IMG/VR virus record: IMGVR_UViG_3300022925_000205
Location: 1 to 21,857 of that record
Reading direction: 5' to 3' (one strand)
DNA: 21,857 nucleotides
From: a virus
A program made the position numbers and the translations under genes. Below the pieces are notes generated by a model. It was given only the letters and a program-made list of their open reading frames with translations. It was not told the DNA's origin and made no database searches. The stretch's first letter is position 1. Each line of letters begins with the position of its first letter. Below are positions 3,361 to 4,734 of this stretch, piece after piece.

Positions 3361-3536
3361 AAATACATCGCGCACATGAAGTAGAGTTAGACTTCCTCAA
3401 GCGCAGAGTTGATACACTAATCAATGAAGAAAACAAAACTGACCCACATCCAAATGTAAAACAAGATTTGTGGGCAGCGCGTTCTGAACTAAACCAATTC
3501 GTAAACAAACTAAGAAGTGAGGGCTATCACATATGA
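3357..3536 (+). CDS. Hypothetical protein, 59 aa
   Basis: The ATG overlaps the previous stop (ATGA), and the TGA overlaps the next start (ATGA). GGGAGAAG lies before the ATG inside the upstream gene. The frame reads MKIHRAHEVELDFLKRR, then VDTLINEENKTDPHPNVK and QDLWAARSELNQFVNKLR, ending SEGYHI. It is a charged, mostly helical small protein with no known motif. The double 4-base overlap is the main reason to accept it. Family not recognised. Confidence 0.6.
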   Translation: MKIHRAHEVELDFLKRRVDTLINEENKTDPHPNVKQDLWAARSELNQFVNKLRSEGYHI

Positions 3537-3823
3537 CCGAAGAACAATTGCGAGAAGCAATGCTTGCTGATGCCAAGGAAGTCAGAAAAAGAGCAAAGGA
3601 TCGTGACGGAACAAACATCTATCTAAAGCAAAACTTAGCTAGTAACTACCACATGGGTGGCAGAGACGCCAAGCCAGAAACAAAAGAAATAATTGCTTTA
3701 GCTCAGAAAGGTATAGACCGTGAGTCTATATGCAAACGCATGAACTTCAAAGGATATACTCGCAGACAAACCTTAGAAGTCTTGAATCGTCACTCAGAAA
3801 AGATTCCAAACTTAAAACATTAA
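3533..3823 (+). CDS. Hypothetical protein, possible HTH C-terminus, 96 aa
   Basis: The start is fixed by the ATGA overlap with the previous gene. The N-terminal half is strongly charged and helical (EEQLREAMLADAKEVRKRAKDR). The C-terminal half, ETKEIIALAQKGIDRESI followed by CKRMNFKGYTRRQTLEVL, looks like a helix-turn-helix of the kind used by small phage regulators, but I cannot name the family. Its last four codons and stop (NLKH) lie in the stretch that also resembles the endolysin 3' end on the other strand. The C-terminus may therefore have been set by a recombination event (inference). Confidence 0.6.
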   Translation: MTEEQLREAMLADAKEVRKRAKDRDGTNIYLKQNLASNYHMGGRDAKPETKEIIALAQKGIDRESICKRMNFKGYTRRQTLEVLNRHSEKIPNLKH

Positions 3824-3886
3824 CTTAAAGTAAAGGCCATCAATGAATGGCCTTTTTCCTTGGCTTCCTCTTAAATTCACAATCGC
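3812..3886 (-). pseudogene. Decayed remnant of a second endolysin 3' end
   Basis: Read on the minus strand, this stretch encodes 24 residues and a stop. Its last 16 are QGKRPFIDGLYFKLMF, against QGRRPFIDGPHFELML at the end of the intact endolysin (3935-4393). Upstream, AIVNLRGS aligns with AYIDLRRG. By my count 14 of 24 residues are identical and both stops fall at the same place. A minus-strand TAG at 3887-3889 closes the frame upstream and no homology is visible beyond. The zinc ligand His147 is Tyr here and Glu149 is Lys, so it cannot work as an enzyme. It overlaps the 3' end of the plus-strand 96-aa gene and contains that module's terminator. Confidence 0.65.
3832..3857 (+). terminator. 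Intrinsic terminator at end of plus-strand module
   Basis: AAAGGCCAT (3832-3840) pairs with ATGGCCTTT (3847-3855) around a CAATGA loop, ending in TTTTT (3853-3857). It starts 8 bases after the 96-aa gene. The hairpin sequence is also found, nearly unchanged, inside the endolysin gene at 3955-3978. Confidence 0.75.
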
Positions 3887-3888
3887 CT

Positions 3889-3933
3889 AAAAAAAGACAA
3901 ATTAATCATTTTGTTAACGTCAACAAAATGATT
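3889..3933 (-). terminator. Likely terminator of the minus-strand late module
   Basis: AATCATTTTGTT (3904-3915) pairs perfectly over 12 bp with AACAAAATGATT (3922-3933), loop 6 bases. It starts 2 bases after the endolysin stop. On the minus strand it is followed by eight bases and then a run of seven T (A-run at 3889-3895). The stem is AT-rich and the T-run is displaced, so efficiency is uncertain. Confidence 0.55.
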
Positions 3934-3934
3934 G

Positions 3935-4393
3935 CTAAAGCATTAGCTCAAAGTGAGGGCCATCAATGAATGGCCTTCTACCCTGACCTCTACGCAAATC
4001 AATATAAGCATTCATCGCTTCTTCAGCAGTTCCGTCCCAATCAGCAATGCTATCAATATGCCAAGCAGCACCCCAACGGATACGACAACCAACAATACCG
4101 GCTGCTTCTCCCATTGCATCAGCCAAGTCATCATATAAATTTAACTCCCAAGATCCACGCCCATTAATATAAGCCATTAAATCAACAGCCAAACCATCTA
4201 AATGTTTTGACTTCATAGTTTGACTAGCGCCTTTAGCTACTAATTCTTTCTGTTGCTCTATAGTTCTCATGCCTTGAATAACACCAAAGTCAGTCTTGGT
4301 TAAAGTAATAGCCATCTTAACTACAGAAACCAAACGCTCATCAACGCCTTCTAACCTATCAAGGCTGCGTCTACTTAATTTAAACTCACTCAT
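3935..4393 (-). CDS. Endolysin: M15-type (VanY/L,D-endopeptidase-like) peptidoglycan peptidase
   Basis: I use the start at 4393 because it forms an ATGA overlap with the upstream holin-like gene; a longer frame to 4456 would run well into that gene. The 152-aa protein has the zinc-binding set of M15 peptidases: S62-K-H64-L-D-G-L-A-V-D71-L (S-x-H-x-x-G-x-A-x-D-L) and, near the end, G-P-H147-F-E-L. I-R-W-G-A-A-W lies between them, as in M15_4-type endolysins. These enzymes cut peptide cross-links in peptidoglycan for cell lysis. No signal peptide or cell-wall-binding domain is seen, so a holin is probably needed. It ends the late module. Its 3' end is repeated in degraded form at 3812-3886. Confidence 0.85.
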   Translation of the reverse strand: MSEFKLSRRSLDRLEGVDERLVSVVKMAITLTKTDFGVIQGMRTIEQQKELVAKGASQTMKSKHLDGLAVDLMAYINGRGSWELNLYDDLADAMGEAAGIVGCRIRWGAAWHIDSIADWDGTAEEAMNAYIDLRRGQGRRPFIDGPHFELML

Positions 4394-4734
4394 TTTTTTA
4401 ATCCCTTCATTGTGCGGATACCAAAGCTTGCAGCAATAGAGGCATACATTCCCCACTGCACCCAGAGCGGTGTGGTTTCTAAGTTAGCAAATCCAATAGC
4501 CATTACATCCTGCATAGAAGGAATAAAATTCATGCAAAGAATAGCTACAAAAACTATAGTCCATAGCTCATCCTTCCAAGAATCTTTCGATGCTTCTATT
4601 GCTGACTGCTCCCAGTCCATTTCACCAGTAGCTTGCTTGAGCTTAATCTCCGCATTAGCCTTCTGGATTGCAGCCTTACCGTCTAAATAACTGGTGGCTA
4701 AACCACCAACTGCACCTATAATCTGACCAATCAT
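4390..4734 (-). CDS. Holin-like membrane protein (three-helix, GTA-holin-like)
   Basis: The 114-aa product has a short hydrophobic N-terminus (MIGQIIGAVGGLATSYL), a charged middle helix rich in Lys, Glu and Ala (residues 19-50), then two likely membrane segments at about 58-73 (LWTIVFVAILCMNFIP) and 91-106 (WVQWGMYASIAASFGI). It ends in a basic tail (RTMKGLKK). The K-D-E-L-W then TM layout after a charged helix recalls the three-segment holins of gene-transfer agents and many alphaproteobacterial phages. A position directly before the endolysin, with ATGA overlap on both sides, supports a lysis role. The family link is from memory of the pattern. Confidence 0.6.
   Translation of the reverse strand: MIGQIIGAVGGLATSYLDGKAAIQKANAEIKLKQATGEMDWEQSAIEASKDSWKDELWTIVFVAILCMNFIPSMQDVMAIGFANLETTPLWVQWGMYASIAASFGIRTMKGLKK

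Follow-up and report, generated by a model that had tools for sequence, protein, structure and literature searches.

Probable scar of an endolysin replacement, holding the stop and probable terminator of the opposing gene, in an uncultured marine phage

The window analysed here is the whole 21,857-nucleotide stretch of the viral record IMGVR_UViG_3300022925_000205. Its major head protein is 52% identical to the counterpart in Pelagibacter phage EXVC031P Hodr, which points to a tailed marine phage that is not closely related to any named one. Two genes converge at the junction of interest. On the minus strand, positions 3935 to 4393 encode an intact endolysin of 152 amino acids that qualifies as an M15-type enzyme, matching PHROG 465 (endolysin, E 6e-48), PDB entry 8q2g (a peptidoglycan L-alanyl-D-glutamate endopeptidase, E 7e-29) and, at 25.6 bits against a barely exceeded cut-off of 25, Pfam PF13539. 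Facing it, the terminal gene of a plus-strand run (3533 to 3823) encodes a 96-amino acid product with no match in Pfam or PHROG and no relative among named phage records. From the end of this gene to the endolysin stop, there follow the remnant described below (3812 to 3886), a linker (3887 to 3903) that is seen only in the window and in a second contig, L105/L119, and for which no source sequence was found, and a palindrome (3904 to 3933). Searching Rfam gave no match in the window. Elsewhere, a GIY-YIG endonuclease gene (1854 to 2231) lies within a stretch (1837 to 2209) that is absent from the otherwise collinear L001, L002, L017, L111 and L116 and present in L119; this candidate homing endonuclease could promote recombination at the junction.

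The remnant lies on the minus strand, 123 nt from the intact gene, and copies the final 75 nt of an M15-type endolysin gene. Its 24 codons and stop, translated as AIVNLRGSQGKRPFIDGLYFKLMF-stop, align with the intact C-terminus, AYIDLRRGQGRRPFIDGPHFELML-stop, with 14 of 24 residues identical and the stops in register. The DNA forms an ungapped direct repeat of 64 nt (3813 to 3876 versus 3936 to 3999, spacing 123) with 78% identity; the initial ~12 nt of the remnant match weakly. The initial annotation, which had proposed such a copy beside the intact gene, is thereby confirmed. With 24 codons, a stop just upstream, no start and a Tyr for the His of DGPHFE, the remnant fails as an M15-type endolysin and cannot be an enzyme. 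The loss of this His had also been proposed and is seen; from knowledge of the M15 family we take the residue to be a zinc ligand, and the PDB alignments found for the endolysin end before it.

The endolysin motif RPFIDG is itself palindromic in its coding DNA and by its protein sequence alone gives four of six central stem pairs, and the match could be imagined to be a chance product of the motif with no common history, a reading we consider exceedingly improbable. The resulting 18-mer occurs twice in the window and in none of 100 shuffles. Because of the palindromic motif, its 18-nt core was masked before scoring, with first-order Markov shuffles as the null. So masked, the remnant agrees with the window's own endolysin tail at 36 of 57 positions and with that of a related contig, L030, at 42 of 57, neither score being reached by any of 20,000 shuffles. 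In the comparison with L030, the parts 5' (23/34) and 3' (19/23) of the palindrome each exceeded all 20,000 shuffles. The stops fall in register, and L030 has the same DNA in an intact gene at the same place. A chance or palindrome-only match is ruled out by the masked comparison, which is the check on sequence outside the 18 bases that had been suggested at the outset. An assembly artefact is excluded by contig IMGVR 3300022929_000309 (L105/L119), which has the same structure and is 100% identical to the window across the junction, diverging from about 5.6 kb on, and also by a truncated version in contig 3300044674_000217 (L116/L127). Our search of viral contigs found no remnant-bearing ones beyond L105 and L127, and the four other matches (L135-L138) were unrelated sequence.

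Among the 87 distinct endolysin ends in the retrieved loci, 30 (counting that of the window) lie opposite a homologue of the 96-amino acid gene. In 23 of these 30 junctions, the opposing-gene alignment ends 10 nt or less from the endolysin stop, frequently overlapping it, and a single tail abutting the opposing gene is thus the ancestral state by parsimony. Four junctions (L003, L004, L011 and L018) have a different, hairpin-like spacer of 71-72 nt, and the gap measures 34 nt in L017 (palindrome only), 61 nt in L116 and 115 nt in the window. In L030, the only contig from which the intact state with the same opposing-gene allele is known, the tail found in the remnant lies within an intact endolysin that converges with the opposing gene with a 12-nt overlap. 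The endolysin end of L030, ttaatgctttaa, is directly followed by GTTTGGAATCTTTTCC, which is almost identical to the sequence after the window's remnant. The same overlap is present in the window, where the last three codons and stop of the opposing gene (Leu-Lys-His-stop, 3812 to 3823, plus strand) are kept inside the remnant. The initial annotation had considered that relatives might carry this sequence without any endolysin-like frame; what they carry lies inside an intact one.

The nearest relative of the remnant among all tails compared is that of L030 (60 of 75 positions, versus 54 of 75 for the window's own), so the closer match to another phage's endolysin, anticipated as the sign of a replacement, was indeed found. 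Seven sites discriminate L030 from the window's endolysin; the remnant agrees with L030 at six of them, with neither at one and with the window at none. The opposing gene product is 96% identical to those of L030 and L116 and at most 69% identical to those of the other 27 junctions. The endolysin body (4000 to 4400), by contrast, is 93-98% identical to L001/L002/L083/L101 and only 62-84% identical to L030, L116, L017 and L111. The protein tree places the window together with L001/L099/L101 (support 100/96) and assigns L030 and L116 to another supported group. For the final 65 nt of the endolysin, L014 is the nearest relative (98%). Since the segments differ in their nearest relatives, the ancestry of the window switches at the remnant. 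Judged by these affinities, the window is a mosaic of an L030-type opposing gene and remnant, the latter the 3' end of a former L030-type endolysin, and an endolysin body of L001/L101 type, which supports the replacement history first suggested for the junction.

Neighbouring copies in direct orientation, 123 nt apart, are what would be expected if the present endolysin tail had been copied in place by local tandem duplication and the copy beside the opposing gene had decayed. We nevertheless hold this to be quite unlikely, as the discriminating sites go 0/7 to the window's own tail and 6/7 to L030, and the opposing gene linked to the remnant is of L030 type. Those sites rule out the present tail of the window as the source of the copy. 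A duplication could also have taken place in an L030-like ancestor whose functional tail and body were then replaced, and such a history would be hard to tell from direct replacement.

The loss of coding constraint on the remnant is also of interest. Comparison with L030 across the 17 terminal codons, counting the stop, reveals five differences in the remnant; each is a G:C to A:T change, and each is non-synonymous when read as endolysin (R to K, P to L, H to Y, E to K and L to F). The intact tails compared with L030 show 15 distinct synonymous and 4 distinct non-synonymous changes, versus 0 and 5 in the remnant (Fisher p 0.003). The sole change in the overlap, the Leu to Phe of the remnant, is AAG to AAA in the opposing gene, where Lys remains Lys. 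The remnant is free of endolysin constraint, and its changes are compatible with constraint from the opposing gene. Taken as a replacement remnant, the locus displays homology above chance, affinity to another lineage, mixed ancestry of the flanks and lost coding constraint.

A further decayed state is available in L116, which has the arrangement of the window minus 54 nt (3846 to 3899), a loss that costs half of the hairpin described below, and which has two derived changes in common with the remnant. Its truncated remnant (L116 4291-4345) reflects a deletion between short AAT repeats that left the opposing gene's stop and the palindrome. L116 carries the palindrome and the incoming tail, and its endolysin protein is identical to that of L030 over the columns used in the tree. 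An incoming tail joined to an L030-identical endolysin hints that the tail was exchanged before the body.

Within the remnant, a terminator-like hairpin, AAAGGCCAT[CAATGA]ATGGCCTTTTT (3832 to 3857), can be drawn on both strands, and the same palindrome, from the RPFIDG codons, occurs in the intact endolysin (3958 to 3975, minus strand). The plus-strand fold, AAAGGCCAT[CAATGA]ATGGCCTTTTTCC, has an energy of -12.5 kcal/mol (z -1.9, moderately better than shuffles) and the minus-strand fold one of -13.7 kcal/mol (z -3.5). The element has the form of a bidirectional terminator, placed between convergent genes and presenting a stem-loop and then a T-tract on either strand. A terminator scan reported the minus-strand site only, and its count of 2 sites in 2 kb equals the 2.0 expected in shuffles, so that the scan alone is not evidence. 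Compared with L030, both bases of the outer pair have been replaced (G-C to A-U), a G-U has become A-U and the T-tract is longer, and all nine of the nine stem pairs are kept. As 11% of random G:C-to-A:T trials do as well, keeping the stem with an equal T-tract (0.5% under uniform substitution), adaptive strengthening of the terminator is not claimed.

Terminators of convergent genes often act in both directions (PMC7566282), and in Bacillus cereus the bidirectional class shows higher conservation than the unidirectional one, and compensatory changes have been described (PMC5381666). We propose that the remnant probably serves as the terminator of the opposing operon in the window. It may instead be a passive scar that keeps the opposing gene's stop by position, with no terminator action in the window, which we regard as possible if rather unlikely. 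The broken remnant hairpin of L116 has not prevented its survival, an unbroken version of the hairpin follows 123 nt later in the endolysin, and the observed changes are compatible with mutation bias. The full retention of the stem, one pair through a two-sided change, and the lengthened T-tract speak against a passive scar, as do the position of the hairpin and its bidirectional A-tract/T-tract form, which fit convergent-gene terminators (PMC7566282). From the loss of half the hairpin in L116, the terminator is not essential in the group. The initial annotation had the endolysin tail left behind and later kept as a terminator. Later recruitment does not hold, as the RPFIDG codons of the living L030 endolysin gene already form the palindrome ~10 nt beyond the opposing gene's stop, the same distance as in the window; by this comparison, the hairpin is inherited from the living gene, not newly recruited.

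The palindrome beside the endolysin stop, AATCATTTTGTTAACGTCAACAAAATGATT (3904 to 3933), is also found after the endolysin stop of L017, L111 and L116. Written as A(T/C)CATTTTGTT-GACGTT-AACAAAATG(A/G)T, it is found in the window (3904-3933), L017 (1712-1735), L111 (6104-6127), L120-L131 and L139-L161, in about 30 distinct contexts, many of them in seemingly unrelated viral contigs, and its 20-nt core is present in 41 contigs. One Spirochaeta MAG contains it, and near-copies occur in Akkermansia, Fusobacterium and Streptococcus phages. Plasmids gave no match, and the literature searched contained no mention of the core GTTGACGTTAAC. Against the empty sites of L014, L039 and L097, the palindrome of L017 stands out as a clean insertion of 32 nt between TTAGCG direct repeats and looks as if it were mobile. 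Its 11-nt arms and 6-nt centre recall a recombinase core site, and its overlap with a promoter-like TTGACG...TATATA in several contigs recalls an operator. In L017 and L111, the opposing-gene frame appears to enter the palindrome and to use a TGA within it, resulting in a different C-terminus.

Based on these observations, we consider it very probable that the remnant is an old endolysin 3' end left by replacement, carrying the stop and a probable terminator for the opposing gene. The homology, the affinity to L030, the mosaicism, the overlap and the relaxed coding constraint are read from the DNA itself; what we infer is how the recombination ran, in which order the two exchanges came and that the hairpin terminates transcription. 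The ancestral junction would have looked like that of L030 today, with the endolysin converging on the 96-amino acid gene and overlapping it by 12 nt, and the terminator site of the opposing operon would have lain inside the RPFIDG codons of the endolysin. Recombination may then have brought in another endolysin 3' end with an adjoining palindromic spacer, as in L017/L111, with a join that left the opposing gene still attached to the final 75 nt of the old endolysin. The endolysin body would also have been exchanged, becoming L001/L101-like. Without a role in an enzyme, the old tail would have decayed as protein while still providing the opposing gene with its three final codons, its stop and, in the window, probably its terminator. 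An uneven recombination had been envisaged from the start; the replacement is supported, and uneven recombination is one plausible route. The first step could have been an unequal crossover, or else a duplication with later conversion.

The use of endolysin codons as a terminator may extend beyond the window. Two of the six central stem pairs hinge on synonymous choice, at the Arg/Gly and the Pro/Asp third bases. Counted on the antisense RNA with G-U allowed, both pairs are kept in 29 of the 30 junctions facing a 96-amino acid gene homologue, the exception being L011 with its hairpin-like spacer, and in 8 of the 9 remaining tightly convergent junctions, with L010 showing an A-T pair in place of G-C. 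This amounts to 37 of 39 tightly convergent versus 8 of 32 co-directional junctions, orientation outside the 96-amino acid gene group being scored roughly from ORF lengths. Raw counts of kept pairs over the tree rows are 36 to 2 and 8 to 24, respectively, but the endolysin tree holds only five independent contrasts, a mean of 3.6 for and 0.3 against, which is not significant (p at least 0.125). We therefore suggest only tentatively, at somewhat less than even confidence, that the catalytic-motif RPFIDGP codons at the endolysin end may double as a built-in terminator for whichever gene faces them. Such dual coding, if true, would explain how the lysis gene is exchangeable yet its tail not lost cleanly, and if the wider pattern holds, codons of a conserved protein motif could act as terminator for an opposing gene, with a measurable constraint on synonymous codons.

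The intact neighbour belongs with the M15-type phage endolysins (PF13539; PHROG 465; PDB 8q2g, 2mxz); the remnant corresponds to the end of one but differs from them in its 24 codons, missing start and Tyr for the DGPHFE His. The hairpin resembles bidirectional intrinsic terminators (PMC7566282; PMC5381666) in its GC-rich stem between convergent genes, with an A-tract before and a T-tract after, and in the one pair changed on both sides relative to L030. It differs from them in that the hairpin of the relatives is inside the coding sequence of one gene and that of the window in a decayed copy. Public contigs make this locus of an uncultured marine phage a readable scar left by replacement of a lysis gene, as they provide the state before (L030), after (the window and L105/L119) and further decayed (L116). 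Overlapping convergent genes have sequence in common, which suggests that neither can be exchanged cleanly alone and hence why the scar persists. Mosaic junctions with fragments are ordinary in phages, and this one is like them in that a lysis gene was swapped, an old piece was left at the border and the neighbours differ in their nearest relatives. Unlike the usual mosaic junction, it has its before, after and decayed states all on hand, and, what is less usual than a fragment as such, the piece retained holds another gene's stop and probable terminator.
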